Positions 25,182-40,770 of a DNA stretch of 64,000 bases are shown piece after piece (position 1 is the stretch's first letter; the number at the start of each line of letters is the position of its first letter). The stretch covers positions 22,020,001-22,084,000 of the forward strand of contig OX327697.1 of the NCBI GenBank assembly GCA_946807835.1, written 5' to 3'. A program made the position numbers and the translations under genes. This DNA comes from Ailanthus altissimus. Taxonomy: Eukaryota; Streptophyta; Magnoliopsida; Sapindales; Simaroubaceae. The notes beneath the pieces were generated by a model. It saw nothing but the letters and a program-made list of their open reading frames with translations, was not told the DNA's origin and ran no database searches.

Positions 25182-26866
25182 GTGAATTGTTCCCTTAATA
25201 ACTTTGAATATTTATTCCGTCTACTCTTTTCTAATTCTGGTAAACCCTTAATTTCTGCCTCTTTTAATTTTTTAGGTAAATCTTCTTGGTATTTCAACTT
25301 TGCATGTTGTAATCACATGACTTCTGATCCTACAATTTTCTCCTCTAAAACTCTTAATTCATATTTACCATCTATTTAAACTGCTAATGGTTCTCTCATG
25401 AAAGTTAACCATGTTGGTCAATTATCTTGTCATAATCTATCTGTATCTGACACTTTTTTTATTCCTAACCTTACATCAAACCTTTTGTCTGTTGGTCAAT
25501 TATGCGAACTTGGTCTTAATGTCTTGTTTACCGCTTCTGGTTGTTGTGTGCAGATCCAAAGACCGGTCGGACGCTTGGACAGGCAGCAAAGTTAGACGTC
25601 TGTATGAACTTATTTCTTTAGATCTATCATTTCTATATCCTTCGTCTGCAGCATCTACCTCTTCAGTGCCTTCATTACATCTTTGGCATTCTCGTTTGGG
25701 TCATGCGTTAGTCAATCGCATTCGATCTCTAGTATCCAGTGGTCATTTAGATATTGTTTCCGATAATAAAGATGATTGTTTTACATGTCCTTTATCTAAA
25801 CAACCAGCCTTACCTTTTGATAATAGTACTACTGTCTCTCATGCTCCATTTGATCTTGTACATTATGATATATAGGATCCTTCTCCAAATCCCATAATGG
25901 GAGGATCCAAATATTTTGTGATATTCGTTGATGACTATTCTCGGTATACTTGGTTGTTTCTTATGAAATAACGATCCGAATTTACTAAAATTTACCAAGA
26001 TTTTGCTCAGATGATTAAAACTCAGTTCTCATGTCCTATTAAGGTTTTCTGCATTGATAATGCTATGGAGTATAGAGATTTTGATTTTCTAAATCTTTTA
26101 CAGGAACACGGTACTATATGTCAAAGGTCTTATCCTGGTACATCTCAGCAAAATAAGAGAGCTAAACGTAAACACAGACACATTTTAGATACTACTCGTG
26201 CTCTTTTTATCTCTTCTTCTTGTCCTGAACGTTTTTGGGGAGAAGCTGCTTTAACCGCTATTTTTACCATTAATCGTATTTCTTCTCCTGTTATAGAGAA
26301 TAAGTCACCTTATGAGCGTTTTTATGGAACTCTACCTAATTACAAACTCCTCAAAGTATTTGGTTGTGTTTGTTTTGTCCTACTTCAAAAACATGAGCAC
26401 ATTAAACTCCAGTCACGTACTTGATTATGTTGCTTCTTGGGATACGGGATAAAACATAAAGGTTATAAGTGTTGGGATCTTATATCTAATCGTCTTCGTA
26501 TTTCTCGTCATGTAGTCTTTCTCGAGCATACAATGTTTTTCTCTGTATCTAACTTTAAAGCTGTGTCTCCTCCTATGTCACAATTTTTTACAGATAATTC
26601 TGTTGATCTTTTTCCCAATACTTTACCTACAGATATTTCTTCTGAGTTTCATACAGGTGAATCTGCTGAAACGACGCCTGCTTCTGAGCCTCCTACCTCG
26701 TCTGAAGGATCTGCTCTAAACATTCCTGAGGCCTCCTCTACTCTATCTCTTTGTCGTTCATCTCGGGTAAGAGAACTTCCTATCAAACTTCGTGATTATC
26801 ACTGTTTCTCTACTACCCTTTCTTTATATGAGCCTCAATCATATTCCGAGGCTAGTTCTAATCTTG
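25182..26866 (+). pseudogene. Copia pol, first half: protease, GAG-pre-integrase, integrase (broken)
   Basis: In order there are: a protease remnant (CNHMTSD near 25307, with the catalytic Asp-Ser-Gly region altered); ANGSLMKVNHVG and IPNLTSNLLSVGQL; the GAG-pre-integrase LHLWHSRLGHALVNRIRSL with CFTCPLSKQ (25676-25800); integrase IFVDDYSRYTWLF (25922) with the second Asp in IDNAMEY (26055); and the C-terminal part RVRELPIKLRDY (26765). The glutamate of the usual RAERKH motif is replaced by Lys (RAKRKH near 26160), and several stops and frameshifts occur, so the integrase is dead. It is cut at 26866/26871 by the gypsy insertion. Confidence 0.85.
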
Positions 26867-26871
26867 TTTGG
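26867..26871. repeat. Target-site duplication TTTGG, left
   Basis: TTTGG immediately precedes the 5' LTR. The identical pentamer follows the 3' LTR at 39284-39288. Removing the element and one copy rejoins the copia frame across the break (SSNLVW + QQAMTEELQSL), which is direct proof of insertion. Confidence 0.97.
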
Positions 26872-28427
26872 TGATGAACACATGAAAATGCATGTTGTTA
26901 AAAGATTCAATCACCATTTAATGTCACCAATTTTAGTATTTTCTGTATTTTTAGCTTGAAATAAAGTGTTCTCCTTAAATTGTGATTAATGAATGTTATT
27001 TGGATAGGTTTAGGTAAATTGGACATAACTCTCAATGTAGAAATCGAAATGAAGAAATTCTTGAACCTGGTGCAACATGACTCAATCTTACACAAATTTG
27101 AAGAATAGTGGAAAAGCCAAATCCAACATGTTATGGGCCAAAAATTGAGATACAACAGAATCGGACTACAACTCTTACCCAGCTTGACCCAACTCACGTA
27201 TTTGGACCGTATCTCCCAAAATACGTACTCAATTGGTATAATTCTTGAAGCTGTGAATTTCTGACTTAACTATCAACAACTCGTATGTTTATGGTAAAGT
27301 CCAAATCAGCCGTTATCATGGACCAAATCGCATTGCAAGTGGGTAGAATGGTTGTTGGCCGAATTCTGGTGTATCTTTGGAATTTTGCTCATATCTCATT
27401 GGATACTCATCCAATTTGCATGAAATCAGTGCCTATGGAAAGAAGAGTCAAAATTCTACAACTTTCATGTCGGCCGCAGAAGCTGAATTGATCATTTACA
27501 TTATCAAAAACGTGCTTCAAGTGGATACACGAGTTATTGACTTAAAATTATTGAAGATTGATGTCATCCATGACATATGTCCATTCTTTGCCTATATAAG
27601 GAGACCCTTAGGACGTTTTTAGAAGATAATTTTCTCTCTTCTTTTATTCTCATTAACATGTATTGTAATTTAGGCTAGAGTTCCTAGCAAGGCTAAGAGA
27701 TGAACTTTTATGTGTAGTAAATCTACTTCCATGCTTTGATTCGGTGTCAAGAGCTATAAATGTTGTAAGTTTGGTTTTGATTAAACTCTTATCTATTTTA
27801 TTTTCTATAATCCAGAAGTTATAATTCTCATGTCTCATATATGTTCAGTCATGCTTTTCTTATGTGATTCATGTTGATTTATAATTGTTACTGGTTATAT
27901 TGTTTTATATGTTAATCTTTTACTGCAGTATTGTCAATTTGATATATTGTCGATCTTGGATAACATGTAAGGGCAATAAATGTTTGATATTCAAGTTAAT
28001 CTTTTACTGCAATATTGTCAAAATGATATATTGTCGATCTTAGATAACTTGTATAAATAACATGATGTGTGTTAATGCTTGCAAAGAGTTTAACTAAATC
28101 AAATATGTGTGTTATCAAATGTGCTATATATTACATACCTTCCGATTGATTGTTTGGGATGTGAAACTTTCAGTTGAGTTATAAATATCGAATCAAAGTA
28201 TAGAGTAGATTTATAAAGCATAATTGTGATTCTCAAAGCCTTGCTTAAATCATCATAAGACATTTTCCTCAATTCATAGACAATTCTATCTCATCCGTTT
28301 AAATCAATTAACCCTTTGCTACTGCTTTAATATTTTACTTCACTAACCTATTTTGCCAAGAGCTTCCTCGTGGGATCGACACCTCAATCTATACTGCGAT
28401 AGCCGCGTTATATTTTGAGCGTAAACA
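26872..28427 (+). repeat. 5' LTR of the Athila-like element (1,556 bp)
   Basis: It begins TGATGAACACATG and ends GAGCGTAAACA. Compared line by line with 37728-39283, I see no substitution or indel. An internal 84-bp direct repeat (units starting at 27911 and 27995, TTAATCTTTTACTGCA) is present in both LTRs. Short open frames inside are repeated in both LTRs and are not genes. Confidence 0.95.
27593..27600 (+). promoter_or_regulatory. TATA box of the Athila-like LTR promoter
   Basis: TATATAAG within CCTATATAAGGAGACC is followed by a CT-rich stretch (TTTCTCTCTTCTTTTATTC). The position, about 720 bp into the LTR, suits the U3/R border. The same box in the 3' LTR (38449-38456) could drive read-out towards the NAC exons. 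Confidence 0.65.
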
Positions 28428-28433
28428 AAAATT

Positions 28434-28451
28434 TGGCGCCGTTGCCGGGGA
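28434..28451 (+). other. Primer-binding site (tRNA-Asp) of the Athila-like element
   Basis: TGGCGCCGTTGCCGGGGA begins 6 nt after the 5' LTR. It is the complement of the 3' end of plant tRNA-Asp, the primer characteristic of Athila/Tat elements. Confidence 0.9.
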
Positions 28452-28567: not shown

Positions 28568-29083
28568 ATGGTTGGTTCTACCACCTAATTTATTTTGTTT
28601 TCTTTAGTTAATTTGTTATATTTTATATTATCTTAATGGCTGGTTTTGCCGCCTAACTTTGTTCACTTTCTTTAGTTTATTTATTGCACTTTTTTTTTAA
28701 TGGCTGGTTTTACCGCCTAACTTTGTTCACTTTCTTTTATTTATTTCTTGCACTTTATTTCTTTAGTTAATTTATTGTATTTTCTTTTTATTTTGTGGCT
28801 GGTTCTACCGCCTAACTTAGTTCCTTTATTTCGTATTGTACTCTATTTATTTATTGCACTTTTTTTTATTGTACTTTATTTTCATTTTCTTTTACATATT
28901 TATTGCAATTTATTTTTTTTAGTTAATATGTTGTATTTTCTTTTTATGGCCGGTTCTACCGCCTAACCTTTTATTTATTTACTTATTGTATTTTCTTTTT
29001 ATTATTTATTTATTGTACTTTTTTTTCGTACTTTATTTGTTTAGTTATTGTATTTATATTTTATGGTTGGTCTTACCACCTAA
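28568..29083 (+). repeat. Leader repeat array, six copies, five with a conserved micro-ORF
   Basis: Six copies of ATGG(C/T)(T/C)GGTTYTACCRCCTAA lie at 28568, 28636, 28700, 28795, 28946 and 29063, separated by T-rich spacers with TTTAGTTAATTTATTG-like words. All except the fourth (GTG at 28795) start with ATG and encode a six-residue peptide before TAA: MVGSTT, MAGFAA, MAGFTA, MAGSTA, MVGLTT. They precede the gag ATG at 29183, so they are upstream ORFs that a scanning ribosome would meet. A role in translation control is inference; simple minisatellite growth is the alternative. Confidence 0.7.
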
Positions 29084-29182: not shown

Positions 29183-32100
29183 ATGCATCGACCTAGAGAC
29201 AAACGAGGAAGATTTGTGAGAGAACTAGAACTAGAACTAGAACCACTCCCACAATTTGTAAGTGAAGAGAATTCACCTTCTAGTTCATCTTGTAATTCTA
29301 ACACAATGAGCCAACACGAAGAAAACCCCGTTAGAACTCTAAAAGATTACTTGCATCCTACTCGCACAGCCACACCATCATGCATTATATTTCCACCTAA
29401 CATACCACATTCGGATTTTAAACCTGGAATGATACAACTTCTTCCCACTTTTCATGGTCTAGATAGTGAAAATCCTTATGTACATGTTAGGGAATTTGAA
29501 GAGGTAATTGCCACCTTCCATAGCCAACCTGAAGCCATAGACACTGTTAGGCTTAAATTTTTCCCTTTTTCTTTGAAAGACAAAGCAAAGAGTTGGCTAT
29601 ACTCTTTGAGGCCGAGGTCTATAGGAACTTGGGCAGAAATGACCCAAGCATTTTTCAATAAATACTTCCCACAACATAAAACTAATGGCCTGAAAAGACA
29701 AATTTCTTCATTCTCCCAAAAAGACAGTGAAACCTTATATCAAGCATGGGAAAGGTTTAAAGAGTTGCTAAATCTGTGCCCTCACCATGGGTATGAAAAT
29801 TGGCGCTTGGTTAGTTATTTCTATGAGGGACTCACAATTAGAGAGCGCCAATTTGTTGAGATGATGTGTAATGGGGAGTTCCTTCACAAAGATCCTGAGG
29901 AAGCCATAGAATTCCTTAATGACTTAGCAGAAAAAGCCCATACATGGACTGGACCTAGCATTGCTGAAAGCACAAATAGGTCACGACCCAATGGAGTTTT
30001 CCATCTTAAGGAAGAGGATAACCTCAAAGCCCAATTAGAGGTCTTAACTAGGGAGTTAGAGGCCTTGAAATCCAAGGATAGAAGGGTCACCCACACGGTT
30101 GCTAGAGTTGAGTCACACGATGTCTGTTTTGTCTGTGGAGGAGCAGAACACTTAGCTCAGGATTGCCCCACGTATAGTGAGATGAGAGGGATATATGAGG
30201 AACAATGTAATGCCCTAGGGATGTACAAGAAGCCTTATTCACCCTACTCTGAAACATATAATCCTAGCTGGAGAAACCACCCAAATTTCAGTTGGAAATC
30301 TGACCAACAAGCCAACAACCAATGGAAACAAGAACAACAAGCACCCAAGTCTTATGTTGCACCTCAATATAATGCACGACCAACTAGGAGTTCTTTAGAG
30401 GATACATTACAAGCATTTATGGAGGCACAAAGTAAGACTAATCAAAAATTTGAAACAATTCTTGCACAGGTGGTGGACGAAAACAAAGAAATTAAGAGTC
30501 AAATCACAAAGTTGACCAGTGCCTTAACTATACAAGAGCGAGGTAAGTTTCCATCTCAACCTCAATCCAATCCAAAAGGACAATTCATGGCACAAGCTTC
30601 TACTTCTGATGTTCAAAATCTCAAAGAAGTCAATGCCATTACTACTCGAAGTGGTAAGATTGTAAGTGAACCTACTCCTGAAATTAACACATCTACGAGT
30701 AGTAAAGACGCCCCCCTTGAAAAAGAGGCCACAATGGAAAAAGAGCCCGAAAGTAAGTTTTCAATCCCAGTGCCTTTTCCTCAAGCTCTTCGACCGGTTG
30801 GAAAAAATTCAGAAATTCAAGGTGAGATTTTGGAACATTTGAAACAAGTTAAAATTAATCTTCCCTTGTTACATTTGATTAAGCAGGTTCCAACTTATGC
30901 CAAAGTCATCAAGGATTTATGCACTATCAAAAGAAAACACCATGTGAAAAAAACTGCATTTTTGGCAGAACAGGTAAGTGCAGTGATTGAACAAAAGACA
31001 CCACCCAAGTATAAAGACCCAGGATGTCCCACAATCTCCTGCCAAATTGGGACACATGAGTTTGGTCAAGCTTTATTGGACTTAGGAGCAAGTGTAAATT
31101 TAATGCCTTATTCTATTTACTTGCAGTTGGGACTTGGTGAGATTAAACCAACATCTGTAGTCCTACAATTAGCTGACCGATCAATCAAGAAACCACGGGG
31201 AATAGTAGAAGATGTTTTGTTGCAAATTGACAAATTTTACTATCCTGTTGATTTTCTTGTTTTAGATACTCATTCTGTTGTTAACATGGAGTCAAAAATC
31301 CCTCTTATTTTGGGGAGACCTTTTCTAGCCACTGCTAACGCTCTTATTAATTGCAGAAATGGTCTAATGAAATTATCTTTTGGGAATATGACTCTTGAGG
31401 TGAACATTTTCAACATTGGCAAACAACCACGAGAAGAAGACGAGTGCTATCATTCATATATGATAGACACACTTGTAGCGGAGGAAGCTTATAAAAATCA
31501 TGGCTATGATTCTTCGAAAAACCTTCTCAATTTTGATTTTGAAGAATTGTATTATCCTGATGTAACAACTAATGTGTTTAGTATTTTTGACTCACAGGAT
31601 AAACGGACTCGATTTTGGCAGCCACACTTTGAAGAGTTGCCACGAGAGAGGGAGAGACCAAAACCATCAAACCTCGAGACACCACAAGTTGAGCTTTCTC
31701 CACTGCCCAAAGGTTTGAAACACGCATTCTTGGGACCAGGTGATACCTTTCCTATCATCATTTCTTCTGAACTTAGTGCTGAACAAGAGAAAAAATTGAT
31801 AAAATTGTTAAAAGAACATAAGTCTGCATTAGGTTGGACCATAGCTGATATTAAAGGTATTTCTCCATTGATATGCTCCCATAGAATTCATTTAGAGGAA
31901 GGTTCCCAACCTCGTAGAGACCCACAAAGAAGACTTAATCCAACAATGAAAGAAGTAGTGAAGAAAGAGGTCTTGAAACTATTAGATGCGGGTATAATCT
32001 ACCCAATTTCTGATAGTCAATGGGTAAGTCCAACTCAAGTAGTTCCTAAGAAATCTGGGGTTACTGTTGTTGAAAATGAGAATGGGATACCTGTTCCAAC

Positions 32101-34594
32101 TAGGGTAGTAAGTGGTTGGAGAATGTGTATTGATTATAGAAAGTTAAACACAGCCACTAGGAAAGACTATTTTCCATTGCCTTTTATCGACCAAATTTTA
32201 GAACGTGTAGCTGGACATCCTTTTTATTGCTTTCTTGATGGGTATTCAGGGTATTACCAGATTGAGATAGCTATAGAAGATCAAGAAAAAACTACTTTTA
32301 CATGCCCTTTTGGTACTTATGCTTTTCGTAGAATGCCATTTGGATTATGTAATGCACCAGCTACTTTCCAGCGTTGCATGTTGAGTATTTTCTCTGATAT
32401 GGTTGAAAAATGCATGGAAGTTTTTATGGATGATTTGACTATTTTTGGTAATTCTTTTGATTTATGCCTACTTAACTTGAAATCTGTTTTGAGTAGGTGT
32501 GAAGAAAAAGGACTTGTGCTAAATTGGGAGAAATGTCATTTCATGGTATCTTCAGGAATCGTTTTAGGGCACATTGTATCTGAAAGAGGGATAGAGGTTG
32601 ACAAGGCAAAAATTGAATTAATCTCTAAATTACCTACACCTAAAACGGTAAAAGATGTCCGATCCTTTCTTGGACACGCTGGATTTTACAGAAGGTTTAT
32701 ACAAAATTTTTCTGCCATATCTAGACCATTGTGTAACCTTTTGCTAAAAGATGCAGAATTTACATGGACACAAGAGTGTGAGGAGGCATTCCGAACACTC
32801 ATTGCCAAACTCACCACCGCTCCTATCATGCAATCACCGGATTGGAACCTCCCATTTGAAATTATGTGTGATGCAAGTAATTATGCTGTAGGAGCAGTTC
32901 TTGGGCAACGGAGGGAGGGAAAACCCTTTGTTGTTTATTATGCTAGTAGGACTTTGAATGATGCTCAAATGAATTACACTACTACTGAAAAAGAACTACT
33001 AGCTGTTGTTTTTGCCTTAGATAAATTTCGTTCTTATTTGATTGGTTCACCTATTGTTATTTTTACTGACCACGCAGCCCTTAAGTACCTTCTTTCTAAG
33101 AAGGATGCTAAAGCCCGTTTAATTAGGTGGATTCTTCTTTTGCAGGAATTTGATATAACCATCAAAGATAAGAAAGGCGTTGAAAATGTTGTTGCTGATC
33201 ATCTATCCCGCCTTGAGTTCACTGACTCTACTGATTTGCCACCCATTCGAGACGATTTTCCAGATGAACATCTTTTTGCTATAAGCCAAATACCTTGGTA
33301 TGCACATATCGTAAATTATTTGGTTTGTGGTGAACTTCCATCTGACTGGAGTGCACAAGATAAGCGTAAGTTCTTGGTTGAGGTACGTAACTTTTATTGG
33401 GATGATCCATATCTTTTCAAATACTGTCCTGACCAAATCATGAGACGTTGCATTCCTGAAAGTGAAGTTTCTAGTGTCTTAAATTTTTGCCATAGTGCTG
33501 CTTGCGGTGGCCATTTTTCTATGAAGAAGACAGCTGTGAAAATTTTACAGTGTGGTCTTTATTGGCCCACTTTGTTCAAAGACACTAATAATTTTTGTCG
33601 TTCCTGTGAAAGATGTCAAAAGTTAGGTGCTTTATCTCGAAGAAATATGATGCCTCTTAACCCTATTCTTGTTATCGAGATATTTGACTGTTGGGGTATT
33701 GATTTTATGGGTCCATTTCCTTCATCTTTTGGCTATCTTTACATCCTTTTAGCTGTTGACTATGTATCAAAATGGGTGGAGGCTGTAGCTTGTCGTACTA
33801 ATGATAATACAACTGTGGTAAAATTCTTAAAAGAAAATGTGTTATCTAGGTATGGTACGCCACGTGTCATCATTAGTGACCAAGGAACACATTTTTGTAA
33901 TCGTTCTTTTGAAGCTTTGATGCGCAGGTATGGTGTTCTTCACAAAGTTTCCACTGCATACCACCCACAGACAAATGGACAAGCCGAGCTAGCAAATAGA
34001 GAGGTTAAACAGATTTTGGAAAAGACGGTTAACCCGAATCGCAAAGATTGGTCCCTACGCCTTTCTGATGCATTATGGGCATATCGTACTGCATACAAAA
34101 CCATCTTAGGAATGTCCCCATACCGGCTTGTTTATGGGAAAGCTTGCCATTTACCTGTTGAGCTAGAACATAAAGCTTATTGGGCTGTCAAAGCCCTTAA
34201 CTTTGATTTGAATGCTGCAGGTCTCCAGAGAAAGTTACAATTGTCAGAAATAGAAGAGCTACGAAATGACGCATATGACAACTCCAGAATTTACAAAGCT
34301 AAAATGAAAGTAGCTCATGATAAACAGATCTCAAGGAAACACTTTGAGCCAAATCAACGGGTCTATCTTTATGATTCTCGATTGCATTTACACCCTGGAA
34401 AGTTGAGATCTCGATGGACTGGTCCATTTATGGTAAGACATGTTTTTCCTAATGGTGCTGTTGAAATAGAAGACCCCACTGATGGACGGACTTTCAAAGT
34501 GAATGGACAGCGGCTAAAAAGCTACGTGGAAAAGGTAAACGACTCTATGTACCTAGGCGAGATCCCTCTTGTGGATCCTGTCTATCGTGATTGA
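29183..34594 (+). CDS. gag-pol: Gag-Pol polyprotein of the Athila-like retrotransposon (1,803 aa, intact)
   Basis: This single frame makes the capsid protein and all enzymes for reverse transcription and integration. Gag (retrotransposon gag domain about residues 100-260) leads to a CCHC knuckle C315-x2-C318-x4-H323-x4-C328. The aspartic protease has D633-L-G-A-S. Reverse transcriptase carries FMDD at 1081-1084 and the [13 protein letters not shown] box. RNase H begins at CDAS with D1230 and has TEKELLAVV. Integrase has a zinc site (H1437, H1444, C1475, C1478) and a full D1507/D1566/E1602 triad, spaced D-x58-D-x35-E. There is no chromodomain. No stop or frameshift is present, which is unusual beside the ruined elements around it. 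The ATG at 29183 was chosen because the nearby ATG at 29179 meets a stop after five codons. A poly-A run lies just before the start. Confidence 0.95.
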
Positions 34595-34842: not shown

Positions 34843-35391
34843 ATGGATCGCATTCTTGCCAACCTTAAAAAACGTTTTCCTTCATTTCCTCAAAATGCTC
34901 TACTTAAGATTTACAAAGCACGGTGTGAAAGACTAAGGCTATTGATGTTGGGTAATATCCCTGTGGACCTTCGTTGGTTAATTGAAGCCAAGGTTCGGTT
35001 GTCCGGTGAGTTTGAAAATGATTTTGTTTCTCATATGCCTGGTCTTGGAAGAAGCTCTTATGCCAAAAGGCGACGAGCAAAAAGGTTACAAGTCTGTCAT
35101 AAATGTGCTCGATGGAATTGTAATCGGAGTTGTCGTTCTTTAGGATTCGTATCTAGAAATCGAGAAGATAAAATTCAGTTCATTAAGGATGGACTGAGTA
35201 AGGAGTCTTTGGATGATATCCTATTGACTCTTGAGACGCAACCCTGTGGGCTCGTGCAACGTGAACTTCTCGATTTATGGAACAAATTCAAAAATGAACA
35301 TCAACGGTATAGTCTCGGGAATCTGACTCTAAAAGACCCTGTTTGCCAATTTATAAGAAAATTGGATGGGAAGCCTATCCCCGACCCATAG
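34843..35391 (+). CDS. Small basic Cys-rich protein, resembling carlavirus nucleic-acid-binding proteins (182 aa)
   Basis: Seen: a 182-residue protein with an amphipathic N-terminal half (residues 1-60), then a basic patch (SSYAKRRRAKR, residues 71-81) leading straight into a four-Cys cluster C85-x2-C88-x4-C93-x3-C97 (CHKCARWNCNRSC), then QFIKDG (112-117) and a helical C-terminal third. Known: small Cys-rich proteins of carlaviruses pair an SxYAxRRRA-type basic motif with a zinc-binding Cys cluster in the same order. They bind nucleic acid, and several suppress RNA silencing. Inferred: this is a captured viral-type gene. The frame is intact inside a young element. It lies 248 bp after pol, ahead of LOG. 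The alternative is an independently evolved Athila accessory protein with a chance zinc motif. I am sure of the ORF, less so of the family. Confidence 0.6.
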   Translation: MDRILANLKKRFPSFPQNALLKIYKARCERLRLLMLGNIPVDLRWLIEAKVRLSGEFENDFVSHMPGLGRSSYAKRRRAKRLQVCHKCARWNCNRSCRSLGFVSRNREDKIQFIKDGLSKESLDDILLTLETQPCGLVQRELLDLWNKFKNEHQRYSLGNLTLKDPVCQFIRKLDGKPIPDP

Positions 35392-35646: not shown

Positions 35647-35654
35647 TATAAATA
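35647..35654 (+). promoter_or_regulatory. Candidate TATA box of the transposon-borne LOG gene
   Basis: TATAAATA in a CTCTATAAATACAGC context lies 53 bp before the LOG ATG, which leaves room for a start site about 30 bp downstream and a short leader. Plant core promoters often have this sequence and spacing. It suggests the cargo gene may be transcribed by itself. Confidence 0.5.
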
Positions 35655-35706: not shown

Positions 35707-36354
35707 ATGGAGGAAACCCAAGTTCGACAATTTCGAAATATATGTGTATTTTGTGGATCTAGTCCTGGGGAGAGTAAAGTGTTCGTAGAAGCAGCAAACA
35801 ATCTAGGAAAAACATTAGCTGCAAGAAAAATTCATTTGATTTATGGAGGAGGTAGCCTTGGGCTAATGGGGTGTGTGTCAACAGCTGCACATTTAGGAGG
35901 AAGTCAAGTTTTAGGTATTATTCCTACAGCTTTGGCCGTGGGAAACCTGACTGGGAAAACAATAGGGGAAGAATTACAAGTCTCATCCATGCATGAACGT
36001 ATAGCCAGAATGCTTTGCAATGCAGACGCTTTTATTGCTTTACCAGGTGGTTTTGGTACTTTGGAAGAAATTTTTCAAATTGTCTCTTGGGCCCAACTGA
36101 ATATCCACCGAAAACCCATAGGTTTGTTGAATGTTAATAACTATTTTGATTGCTTACTTTGTTTTCTTGATCAAGCTGTGGAACAGAATTTTATTTCACA
36201 TTCGGCGCGACAGATCTTGGTTTCTGCTACTGAGGCGGATGAATTGATTAACAAATTACAGGCAGTTACCTACGAACCTGACCCAGCAATAACTCGGATC
36301 GATTGGTCAGTGGGCCTTAACAAGCGAAAATTGGATCTGACACTCCGTTTGTAA
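35707..36354 (+). CDS. LOG-like: LOG-type cytokinin riboside 5'-monophosphate phosphoribohydrolase (215 aa), retrotransposon cargo
   Basis: LOG enzymes remove ribose 5-phosphate from cytokinin nucleotides in one step, giving the active free bases (established). All family signatures are seen: the N-terminal VFCGSSPG (14-21), the phosphate loop YGGGSLGLMG (46-55), GIIP (70-73), MHERIARM with R98 (95-102), the hallmark PGGFGTLEE (113-121) with E121, and WAQLNIHRKPIGLLN (128-142). R98 and E121 are the expected active-site Arg and Glu. The 215-residue length is normal for plant LOG. It has no introns, whereas plant LOG genes have several, so capture from mRNA is likely. Some positions differ from typical plant LOG (SMHERI, NNYF), so capture is not recent although the element is. 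ATG 35707 was chosen because it matches family N-termini; the frame is open further upstream without ATG. Confidence 0.92.
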   Translation: MEETQVRQFRNICVFCGSSPGESKVFVEAANNLGKTLAARKIHLIYGGGSLGLMGCVSTAAHLGGSQVLGIIPTALAVGNLTGKTIGEELQVSSMHERIARMLCNADAFIALPGGFGTLEEIFQIVSWAQLNIHRKPIGLLNVNNYFDCLLCFLDQAVEQNFISHSARQILVSATEADELINKLQAVTYEPDPAITRIDWSVGLNKRKLDLTLRL

Positions 36355-37727
36355 ATTTTTCTTTTTATTTATTTATTTATCAGTACCATCATTTTAGTTT
36401 ATATTTGCTTAAGTGTCTCTCAGGTTTGTTTCTTTCAAATAACTGGCGTTTCAGGTAATGTCTCCTATACTTTATCTCTTTCTATTTAAACATTGAGGAC
36501 AATGTTTCATCTGGTTTGGGGGGAGGATAGTAGACATACGTTGCATTTTACAAAAAAAAAAAAAAAAAAAAAAAATTGTGGTCCGACATTTGATTAAAAT
36601 GGCAGAGTAAAGAGTTCATTCTTGAACTCTTGAGACGCATTCTAGGTCAAATTAGAATGGCAGAGTAAGGAGTTTTAGTACTAACTTTTGAAATGCATTT
36701 TAACTAACTTTTTGTTATTTTGTTTTATATTTCATGCATTGTCGTTTATTGCTTGTAGTCTTGGTAATTCTTGTATAAAGGAATTTGCTTTTCTGCCTAA
36801 GTATGATTTCAGAATTGTTTAGGTTGAGTCACTGTTTCTATCTAGGTTACTAAAGAATGACTTCCAAAATATTTTTGAGCACAATGCTAAGCCTTGTGGT
36901 AAGATGGATGATTCAATTTATATAGCCAAGAGAATTCCCATGTTTAAGTATATATTTTTCTAATCTCGCATATCTTTTGTGAGTAAGTGGAAAGGTTGAG
37001 AAAACAGCTTATGAACTTTCATTGATCCTTTGAATTGGTTAATTTTTGTTTAGAATGATATTATTTGAATTAAGGGATAAGTTGGTTACATTTGTGCATA
37101 ATATAATTTGGTGAGAAACATTTGTAATGCTTCCTTGTATTCTATAAAAAAAAAAAAAAAAAAAACACAAAAGTACAAAAAACAAGAAAAAAAAAAAAAA
37201 AAAAAAAGAAGCAATTCAGTTTAATAAAGTCTTCATTCAATTTTAGAAGACAAATACCTTGTAAAACAGTTTTCTCACCAAGTTATAATTGTATTATTCT
37301 CACAAGCCAATTAAAGTTCTAAAGTTGGCGTATGATATGAATAATTGATTTTTAAACAAATAATTTTCCTATCTTCGGATCAATGTTAGTTTATATGTCT
37401 GTCCTTAAAATTGACTTTTTCTTGAGTGCTTAACTGTTTTCCAACTCCATAAGAGAAGTCCTAACCTTTTAAACAGTCATACACCTGTGAGGATATGGAG
37501 TTGAGGCTTTTACTTGGATAAATTCTCAAGGCTATATCTATTGTGGTTTGTGGTTAGATGGTTATGGCTTAGTTCACACACACACAAATTATGGAAGTTG
37601 TAATTGAAAAAACCATGATAGCAACAGTGATCTCGAACTGACGTTTTGATTGAAGTGCTTAGGTAGTTTTGCATATTCTATTTACGCTTGAATTGCTAGA
37701 GACTAGCAATAAGCTGGTTGGGGGCTG
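36355..37727 (+). other. 3' non-coding region and polypurine tracts of the Athila-like element
   Basis: No gene. A motif ACATTGAGGACAATG followed by TTTGGGGGGAGG (36491-36526) resembles a conserved Athila/Tat segment and may be a second polypurine tract. Poly-A runs lie at 36551-36576 and 37145-37207. Two imperfect copies of about 61 bp (36595-36720, AATGGCAGAGTAA) are present. The tract next to the 3' LTR is GGTTGGGGGCTG (37716-37727). Confidence 0.6.
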
Positions 37728-39283
37728 TGATGAACACATGAAAATGCATGTTGTTAAAAGATTCAATCACCATTTAATGTCACCAATTTTAGTATTTTCT
37801 GTATTTTTAGCTTGAAATAAAGTGTTCTCCTTAAATTGTGATTAATGAATGTTATTTGGATAGGTTTAGGTAAATTGGACATAACTCTCAATGTAGAAAT
37901 CGAAATGAAGAAATTCTTGAACCTGGTGCAACATGACTCAATCTTACACAAATTTGAAGAATAGTGGAAAAGCCAAATCCAACATGTTATGGGCCAAAAA
38001 TTGAGATACAACAGAATCGGACTACAACTCTTACCCAGCTTGACCCAACTCACGTATTTGGACCGTATCTCCCAAAATACGTACTCAATTGGTATAATTC
38101 TTGAAGCTGTGAATTTCTGACTTAACTATCAACAACTCGTATGTTTATGGTAAAGTCCAAATCAGCCGTTATCATGGACCAAATCGCATTGCAAGTGGGT
38201 AGAATGGTTGTTGGCCGAATTCTGGTGTATCTTTGGAATTTTGCTCATATCTCATTGGATACTCATCCAATTTGCATGAAATCAGTGCCTATGGAAAGAA
38301 GAGTCAAAATTCTACAACTTTCATGTCGGCCGCAGAAGCTGAATTGATCATTTACATTATCAAAAACGTGCTTCAAGTGGATACACGAGTTATTGACTTA
38401 AAATTATTGAAGATTGATGTCATCCATGACATATGTCCATTCTTTGCCTATATAAGGAGACCCTTAGGACGTTTTTAGAAGATAATTTTCTCTCTTCTTT
38501 TATTCTCATTAACATGTATTGTAATTTAGGCTAGAGTTCCTAGCAAGGCTAAGAGATGAACTTTTATGTGTAGTAAATCTACTTCCATGCTTTGATTCGG
38601 TGTCAAGAGCTATAAATGTTGTAAGTTTGGTTTTGATTAAACTCTTATCTATTTTATTTTCTATAATCCAGAAGTTATAATTCTCATGTCTCATATATGT
38701 TCAGTCATGCTTTTCTTATGTGATTCATGTTGATTTATAATTGTTACTGGTTATATTGTTTTATATGTTAATCTTTTACTGCAGTATTGTCAATTTGATA
38801 TATTGTCGATCTTGGATAACATGTAAGGGCAATAAATGTTTGATATTCAAGTTAATCTTTTACTGCAATATTGTCAAAATGATATATTGTCGATCTTAGA
38901 TAACTTGTATAAATAACATGATGTGTGTTAATGCTTGCAAAGAGTTTAACTAAATCAAATATGTGTGTTATCAAATGTGCTATATATTACATACCTTCCG
39001 ATTGATTGTTTGGGATGTGAAACTTTCAGTTGAGTTATAAATATCGAATCAAAGTATAGAGTAGATTTATAAAGCATAATTGTGATTCTCAAAGCCTTGC
39101 TTAAATCATCATAAGACATTTTCCTCAATTCATAGACAATTCTATCTCATCCGTTTAAATCAATTAACCCTTTGCTACTGCTTTAATATTTTACTTCACT
39201 AACCTATTTTGCCAAGAGCTTCCTCGTGGGATCGACACCTCAATCTATACTGCGATAGCCGCGTTATATTTTGAGCGTAAACA
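37728..39283 (+). repeat. 3' LTR of the Athila-like element (1,556 bp)
   Basis: It is identical in length and, as far as I can read, in sequence to 26872-28427 (constant offset of 10,856). It is followed by the TTTGG duplication at 39284-39288. Its promoter points into the RT half of the copia and towards NAC exons 2 and 3. Confidence 0.95.
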
Positions 39284-39288
39284 TTTGG
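39284..39288. repeat. Target-site duplication TTTGG, right
   Basis: Matches 26867-26871. It is followed directly by the interrupted copia coding sequence (CAGCAAGCAATGACAG). Confidence 0.97.
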
Positions 39289-40770
39289 CAGCAAGCAATG
39301 ACAGAAGAATTGCAGTCCCTTGAGAAGTCACATACTTGGGATTTGTTACTCTTTCATCTAATAAAACTGTCATTGGATGCAAATGGGCATATAAGATCAA
39401 GACCAAATCTGATGGATTTATTGAGCGTTATAAAGCCCGCCTTGTTGCCAAAGGCTTTACCCAAGAATATGGAATAGATTATGAAGAAACTTTTTCCCCA
39501 GTTGCTAGACTTACTTCTGTTCGAAGTTTATTGGTTGTTGCTGCAGTTTGTGATTGGACATTATTTCAGATGGATGTTAAAAATGTTTTCCTCAATGGTG
39601 ATCTCACTGAAGAAGTGTATATGAAGCCTCCTCCCGGTTATCCACATCCTCCAGGCAAAGTTTGTAAACTTCGTCGTGCTCTGTATGGTCTTAAACAAGC
39701 TTCTCGTGCATGGTTTACAAAATTTAGTGGGACTATTCTTCAGCATGGTTTTCAGTTTAGTCCCTATGACTCAACTCTTTTTGTCCGCAAGACAGCACAA
39801 GGTTGTGTTCTCCTTCTTATCTATGTTGATGATATGATTATCACGGGTGATGATCTTCTTGGTATTTTCACTCTCAAGAACTTTTTTCAGCAACACTTTG
39901 AGATGAAAGATCTTGGCAATCTTAGTTATTTCCTTGGCTTTGAAGTATTATCCGACTCTATTGGGTATTATCTTTCTCAAGCTAAATATGCATCTGATCT
40001 ACTTGCTAAAGCTGGGTTGACAGACAGTAAGACTGCCTCCACTCCTCTAGAGCCTAATGCCAAACTTCTATCCTCTAATGGTACTATTCTCAATGATACT
40101 ATCTTATATCGTCAATTGGCTGATAGTTTGGTTTACCTTACAGTTACTCGCCCAGACATTGCTCATGCTGTTAATGTTGTCAGTCAGTTTATGGCCGTTC
40201 TTCGTACCTCTCATTATGTAGCAGTTCTTCATATTCTACGTTATCTCAAAGGTACACTTTTTCACGGTCTCTATTTTTCAGCTCACTCTCATTTTGTGTT
40301 ACGAGCTTATGCTGATGCATATTGGGCTGGTGATCCTACGGATCAACGATCAACTACTGAATTTTATCTTTTCTTGGGTGATTGTCTTCTTTCATGGAAA
40401 AGTAAGAAACAGACAGCCACTGCTCGCTCGAATACTGAAGCTGAATACTGTGCTCTTGCAGATATTACCCAAGAAATTGTCTGGCTCCGCTGGCTTCTTG
40501 AAGATATGAGTATTTCTCACACTAGAGCTGCACTTCTTTAATGTAACAATCAAAGTGCTTTCAAATTGCCCACAATGATGTATTTCATGAGCGGACTAAA
40601 CATATTGAAACAGATTATCACTTTGTTCGACAACACATTTCTCAAGGCACTATCATACTCCACTCCATCTCATCTGAGGAGCAATCTGCTGATATCTTTA
40701 CCAAATCTCTATTTCTGCGCCGTTTTCATGCTCTAATTTTTAAACTCAAACTTGTTTTCACTACGCCATC
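39289..40770 (+). pseudogene. Copia pol, second half: reverse transcriptase and RNase H (frameshifted)
   Basis: After a frameshift near 39345, a long frame to 40541 carries GCKWAYKIKTKSDG, ARLVAKGFTQ, QMDVKNVFLNGDL, LYGLKQASRAW and the catalytic YVDD (about 39823), then RNase H with SLVYLTVTRPDIAHAV and NTEAEYCAL. The last part of RNase H (AHNDVFHERTKHIE to IFTKSL) lies out of frame after 40541. The region is well preserved but broken in at least two places, so the copia could not move on its own. Confidence 0.88.

Follow-up and report, generated by a model that had tools for sequence, protein, structure and literature searches.

A LOG-related gene with an EAR-type C-terminal tail inside a young gypsy retrotransposon of Ailanthus altissimus

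The insertion and its genes

The window, a 64,000-nucleotide stretch of Ailanthus altissimus DNA, harbors a gypsy element that is nested in a copia element. Its two LTRs were found as a BLAST pair whose ends were then refined. They span positions 26872-28427 (5' LTR, + strand, TG...CA) and 37728-39283 (3' LTR, + strand), measure 1556 bp each and show zero differences. At the LTR boundaries the sequence reads TTTGG on either side (target site duplication, 26867-26871 and 39284-39288). When the flanks are joined with a single copy of this duplication, a reading frame continues through the junction in copia-like sequence, and the LOG-related gene described below therefore lies inside the insertion. 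A first-pass annotation of this locus had regarded the gene as cargo within a perfect TTTGG duplication and the insertion as young, and both descriptions held up. Assuming 7e-9 substitutions per site annually, the age of the insertion is bounded at less than about 0.14 million years because there are 0 differences in 1556 sites. The surrounding copia copy (26437-26871 and 39289-40541) looks decayed; its pol similarity soon shifts to another frame past the rejoined site. Each LTR contains a direct repeat of about 70 bp that is 86% identical (27901-28053 and 38757-38909), and the leader that precedes gag contains diverged tandem-like repeats (28599-29068).

The 5' LTR is followed by a primer-binding site, TGGCGCCGTTGCCGGGGA (28434-28451, + strand), which we take to be of the tRNA-Asp type, as in Athila. 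Gag-pol is encoded by a single open frame of 1803 aa (29183-34594, + strand), in which Retrotrans_gag, RVT_1, RNase H and integrase all scored above the Pfam cut-off, while Asp_protease_2 and a CCHC knuckle scored slightly below it. The domain order is gag, protease (the match below cut-off), reverse transcriptase, RNase H and integrase, with a single RNase H stretch; no chromodomain was matched in gag-pol by Pfam at E 0.01. Primer site and single RNase H would fit an Athila-like Ty3/gypsy element. A polypurine-tract-like sequence, GGTTGGGGGCTG (37716-37727, + strand), precedes the 3' LTR.

Two accessory reading frames follow pol. The first (34843-35391, + strand), located between pol and the LOG gene, encodes a carlavirus-type nucleic-acid-binding (NABP/CRP-like) protein of 182 aa that matched Viral_NABP (E 4.5e-8) and Carla_C4 (E 1.5e-6), each above the Pfam cut-off. 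Like the cysteine-rich/NABP proteins of carlaviruses it has both domains and, as judged from the family alignment, a basic stretch plus a Cys cluster; it differs from them in being encoded by a retrotransposon, where a suppressor role is only putative. At E ≤0.001, 540 of 655 candidates were relatives of this protein. Among the matches listed (120 of these 540), all 120 carry Carla_C4 in their precomputed annotation, and the named sources are Populus, Xanthoceras, Acer and Rhamnella. When 24 family members were rescanned with Pfam, Viral_NABP was recovered in 20 and Carla_C4 in 18 at E ≤0.001. Neither a single-protein search nor an alignment search found relatives in the viral contigs. The structure model of this protein was of low confidence (mean pLDDT 56.8) and did not enter a fold search.

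The second frame (35707-36354, + strand) starts with ATG and encodes a LOG-related protein of 215 aa in an intact frame without intron, as the first-pass annotation had stated; LOG itself is a cytokinin riboside 5'-monophosphate phosphoribohydrolase. The protein matched Pfam Lysine_decarbox (E 8.7e-39), scored above the cut-off of NCBIfam TIGR00730 and has Arabidopsis At2g37210 (2a33) as its closest solved structure (E 3.9e-66). AlphaFold2 modeled it with a mean pLDDT of 87.3 and a confident core. A fold search with this model returned PDB 2a33, 1ydh and 5zbj, each with probability 1.00, at 52-55% identity to At2g37210 and At5g11950 in the fold alignments. GGGSLGLMG, R98 and PGGFGTLEE with E121 are all found, and the window protein combines the LOG fold with the PGGxGTxxE motif. 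Fold, catalytic pair and PGGxGTxEE are shared with the plant LOGs At2g37210 and At5g11950, whereas the replaced pocket Lys and Glu, the C-terminal LxLxLxL tail, the element-borne position and the missing intron set the window protein apart; host LOG genes generally have introns. The location between pol and the 3' LTR had been recognized from the start, but the carlavirus-type frame just upstream had been missed.

An octamer, TATAAATA (35647-35654, + strand), lies 52 bp ahead of the LOG start and might possibly serve as the gene's own promoter, a weak reading because 21 such octamers occur on the + strand of the window. The sole reading frame found from LOG to the 3' LTR is a short one of 54 aa on the minus strand.

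Relatives with and without LOG

A related element without LOG at the corresponding place was encountered in L001, a 3330-bp contig with plant-type gypsy pol that is assigned to a Candidatus Nomurabacteria MAG, a record probably contaminated with plant DNA. Compared with the window, L001 shows 70% amino acid identity in the end of pol (530 residues) and 77% in the NABP frame. Both also share a conserved non-coding block, which in the window lies 3' of LOG (36449-36527, + strand) and comprises TTTCAGGTAAT..., CATTGAGGACAATG and a G-run. BLAST and reading of the sequence aligned L001 2533-2608 to window 36449-36523 at 75% nucleotide identity. The block begins about 1060 bp past the NABP frame, behind LOG, in the window but only about 190 bp past the NABP frame in L001. 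Since the block follows the NABP frame at this short distance, L001 has no LOG at that place, although one may lie past the contig end. L001 thus carries the NABP frame with no LOG at this place, and LOG is therefore an optional cargo of the element lineage. MAFFT, applied to L001 and the LOG region, had forced short chance matches inside LOG, and the placement described above was used instead. Eight LOG proteins searched against L001 gave short hits only. The best of these (13 residues, E 0.031, L001 2967-3005), a segment also touched by two other LOG queries, was taken as chance because similarity stops on both sides, a decayed remnant being possible. Within the block, a short inverted repeat, CATTGAGGACAATG, is followed by the G-run (window 36491-36527, L001 2576-2613), which is perhaps an internal polypurine tract, and TTTCAGGTAAT just upstream looks like a putative splice acceptor.

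The NABP frames of window and L001 gave a dN/dS of 0.20 (NG86) or 0.09 (YN00), with identities of 0.80, 0.87 and 0.65 at the three codon positions; for pol, NG86 yielded no usable dS between the two. Third-position identity was 65% in the NABP frame (window 34843-35388 against L001 1799-2344) and 47% in pol, and the higher value in NABP could mean that lineages have exchanged the module or that it is under additional constraint.

A search with the window LOG returned 7923 relatives among 7999 scored candidates, and the best 120 of these together with the window copy were used as the element-type set. The host set consisted of the best 120 proteins from an Arabidopsis LOG profile search, its sampling being guided by similarity to LOG3 and LOG8. 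A length limit of 190-240 aa left 116 of the 121 element-type proteins and 102 of the 120 host proteins in the alignment. In FastTree, these 116 and 102 rows separate with support of 94 and 99. A smaller tree of hand-picked rows (35 element-type, 26 host) splits with support of 99/99 and in 100% of 200 bootstraps. Here P0101 and then P0103 are basal, and P0119, P0117 and P0051 sit on long branches. Added LOG5- and LOG7-like sequences group with the hosts.

A near-identical second copy exists: P0002 differs from the window LOG at 1 of 215 residues and P0122 from the NABP protein at 4 of 182, and their longest contigs are each 8723 bp. We find this equality convincing, while the equal longest contigs of P0094 and P0128 (4511) and of P0013 and P0235 (2128) are only suggestive. 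Equal longest contigs below 1500 bp were discarded as LOG and NABP pairs, being too short for both frames.

Could the clade instead represent a host LOG paralogue that was captured by an element only here or in a few species? The window copy is the sole LOG seen directly inside an element and the genomic context of most rows is not in view, so that their element-borne state is inferred. P0101 (Xanthoceras, four members), which lacks the tail described below, would also suit a host gene. Against this stands the dispersal of the copies. Reevesia pubescens accounts for 33 of the best 120 relatives, whose gene names span 16 chromosomes, and Diplodiscus trichospermus for 10, on 8 chromosomes; the Pterospermum cluster P0119 holds 327 member sequences. 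Further named sources among these 120 are Populus, Paulownia, Xanthoceras, Melia, Pterospermum and Primulina, many rows being without organism. The data support a clade of LOG-type proteins with many dispersed copies in at least two plants. According to the available part of one study (PMC9289625), gypsy consensus sequences from Citrus and poplar moreover contain a YgdH/LOG domain, and we consider a host paralogue very unlikely.

Catalytic pair, pocket and tail

The catalytic residues of CgLOG are Arg99 and Glu122, and Met96, His97, Lys100, Glu125 and Trp129 form its proposed prenyl pocket, inferred through superposition, with Lys100 also part of the adenine site (PMC4979012, as far as accessible). 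The element-type rows keep the catalytic pair: R98 in 110 of 116, E121 in 114 and both in 108, counts that are not independent because the rows are related to each other. T118 (116/116), E120 (112/116) and W128 (114/116) are likewise kept. Two pocket residues, by contrast, have been replaced. Among the 116 element-type rows, only 3 still have Lys99 and 2 still have Glu124, each of which is invariant in the hosts (102/102); in the window copy these positions are Ile99 and Gln124. Met95 is kept in 85 and His96 in 57 of the 116 rows. The window copy retains both as well as Trp128, leaving the proposed set of Met, His, Lys, Glu and Trp incomplete by its Lys and Glu. P0101 and P0103, the basal rows, still have both. 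The pocket is only part of the change: among the 105 sites that never vary in hosts, element-type rows retain 55 at ≥90% and 20 at ≤10%, many sites beyond the pocket being altered too.

A working cytokinin-activating LOG, whose free cytokinin would favor dividing or meristem cells that allow the element to spread, is possible but doubtful. Catalytic pair, PGGFGTLEE and LOG fold are all retained, and Met95, His96 and Trp128 of the pocket are in place in the window copy. On the cytokinin-specific equivalog model of NCBIfam, whose cut-off is 300 bits, the window LOG scored 117, within the range of six plant LOGs (116-136); since these miss the cut-off as well, we dropped the missed cut-off as evidence against a role in cytokinin activation. 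The point that tells against this explanation is the replacement of the host-invariant Lys99 in 113 and of Glu124 in 114 of 116 element-type rows. The first-pass annotation had seen a simple intact cytokinin-activating enzyme with all signature motifs. Its motifs were indeed present, but the replaced pocket residues, together with a tail foreign to 120 host LOGs, weaken the free-cytokinin reading.

Is the catalytic site retained beyond expectation? Permutation gave an answer that depends on the choice of sites. Eight sites chosen after the counts were known are 97% kept (p 0.00065-0.00125). For the ten residues to which the accessible text of PMC4979012 assigns AMP binding or catalysis the value is 76% (p 0.20), for the phosphate, ribose and catalytic residues alone 84% (p 0.09) and for the Arg-Glu pair alone 97% (p 0.14). 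Retention exceeded chance only with our own sites and is therefore no proof of kept catalysis.

The C-terminus of the window protein reads KRKLDLTLRL (36322-36351, + strand), a basic patch followed by LxLxLxL, an EAR-type motif according to sequence and model. In the AlphaFold2 model the chain is disordered from residue 203 onward, as expected for a linear motif. The tail contains LxLxL, the mark of EAR-motif proteins, and an LxLxL-type EAR motif binds TPL (TOPLESS) in RBE, as the available text of PMC10942257 reports. LxLxL is a short motif. Within the last 14 residues it occurs in 96 of 116 element-type rows (at least 205 aa) and in none of 120 host rows. When the tail letters were shuffled, it appeared in a mean of 13.0 of 116 rows (maximum 23 over 500 rounds), and at the same place it occurs in 1 of 120 NABP rows. 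The 20 aligned rows that lack it are truncated in some cases and changed inside the motif in others. Where a row reaches them, tail residues are kept: K206 in 110 of 113, L211 in 102 of 105, L213 in 98 of 103 and L215 in 101 of 103. Of the two basal proteins, P0101 and P0103, only the latter has the tail.

These leucines, whose retention ranges from 98 of 103 to 102 of 105 rows, would also suit a pseudoenzyme whose LOG core is merely a stable dimer scaffold carrying the EAR-type tail. The adenine-site Lys is replaced, and alanine substitutions in the AMP-binding and catalytic set of CgLOG almost completely abolish activity (PMC4979012, accessible part). The joint retention of R98 and E121 in 108 of 116 rows speaks against such a scaffold, weakly so, the published site list as a set being kept no better than chance. 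We judge this explanation improbable.

A passenger captured by chance and of no use to the element has the least probability among the explanations we weighed. The related element L001, without LOG at the corresponding place, is in its favor. It leaves unexplained a full-length clade across several plants with a common tail that shuffling does not reproduce, although protein collections list open frames by design. The first-pass annotation had named LOG-less relatives together with neutral decay of this copy as evidence against retention by selection: the former exist in the form of L001, the latter is not suggested by tail and catalytic pair. On these sequence patterns, selection in the element lineage has likely retained LOG.

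Proposed roles and known systems

We tentatively favor the view that this LOG-type cargo gene, with its catalytic pair, altered pocket and basic LxLxLxL tail, encodes a nuclear accessory protein that would bind TOPLESS and whose substrate is possibly no longer a cytokinin precursor. Re-purposing of LOG appears likely. A plant LOG may have been captured by the element lineage, may then have gained the basic EAR-type tail and may subsequently have changed its base pocket (Lys, Glu); we propose this order because P0101 and P0103 retain the pocket and only P0103 of them has the tail. The basic patch would let the protein enter the nucleus, the tail would be predicted to bind the host co-repressor TOPLESS/TPR, and the enzyme would cleave a nucleotide monophosphate with changed substrate.

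How might the element benefit? LOG and the carlavirus-type frame look like a host-directed accessory module with a putative function: acting together, their products might render the host cell more permissive for transcription and spread of the element. In the available text of one account, carlavirus proteins of the NABP type are termed silencing suppressors, and p12 of Chrysanthemum virus B is described as a transcription factor that induces hyperplasia (PMC12172455). A plant LTR lineage with a full two-gene host-manipulation module, in which a carlavirus-type silencing suppressor and a LOG-derived nuclear effector that binds TOPLESS and acts on a new nucleotide would open host cells to transposition, is rather unlikely at present. 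The dependence of the permutation on site choice and the NCBIfam control led us to lower this and the favored nuclear-protein reading and to raise the cytokinin and pseudoenzyme alternatives. If the module were real, host silencing and co-repressor pathways would be targets of virus-like effectors that transposons deploy; as some relatives have LOG and others lack it, the effector idea can be tested.

Extra reading frames of unknown use are common in plant LTR elements; the two accessory frames described here have recognizable kinship and lead to clear predictions. Steinbauerova et al. 2011 reportedly described two Athila-like elements with similarity to LOGL4. The accessible part of PMC9289625, which cites that work, already places a LOG-related (YgdH/LOG) domain in gypsy elements of Citrus sinensis, C. 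clementina and Populus trichocarpa; these share with our element the gypsy type and the LOG-related domain. The part of that account available to us is without mention of a tail, pocket changes, a viral-type companion frame or a LOG-less relative, and of relatives in Reevesia, Diplodiscus, Xanthoceras, Melia, Paulownia and Primulina. New here are the tree separation, the kept catalytic pair with pocket replacement, the LxLxL tail, the carlavirus-type frame and the LOG-less relative. A search of mostly open-access literature found no report of an LTR element with a Viral_NABP or carlavirus-type domain.

In orchids, gypsy elements likewise carry an additional frame for a host-related enzyme, a 2-ODD RNA demethylase; it is a different enzyme whose activity was shown there, whereas activity of the window LOG is predicted (PMC9289625, accessible part). 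RBE and other LxLxL-type EAR repressors share LxLxL with the window tail, but RBE is a zinc-finger protein, whereas the window motif sits on an enzyme fold and its TOPLESS binding is predicted (PMC10942257, available text). A single-protein search of the viral contigs with LOG found no relative; an alignment search recovered 28 distant LOG-like loci on viral contigs (L002-L029) at 23-39% identity.
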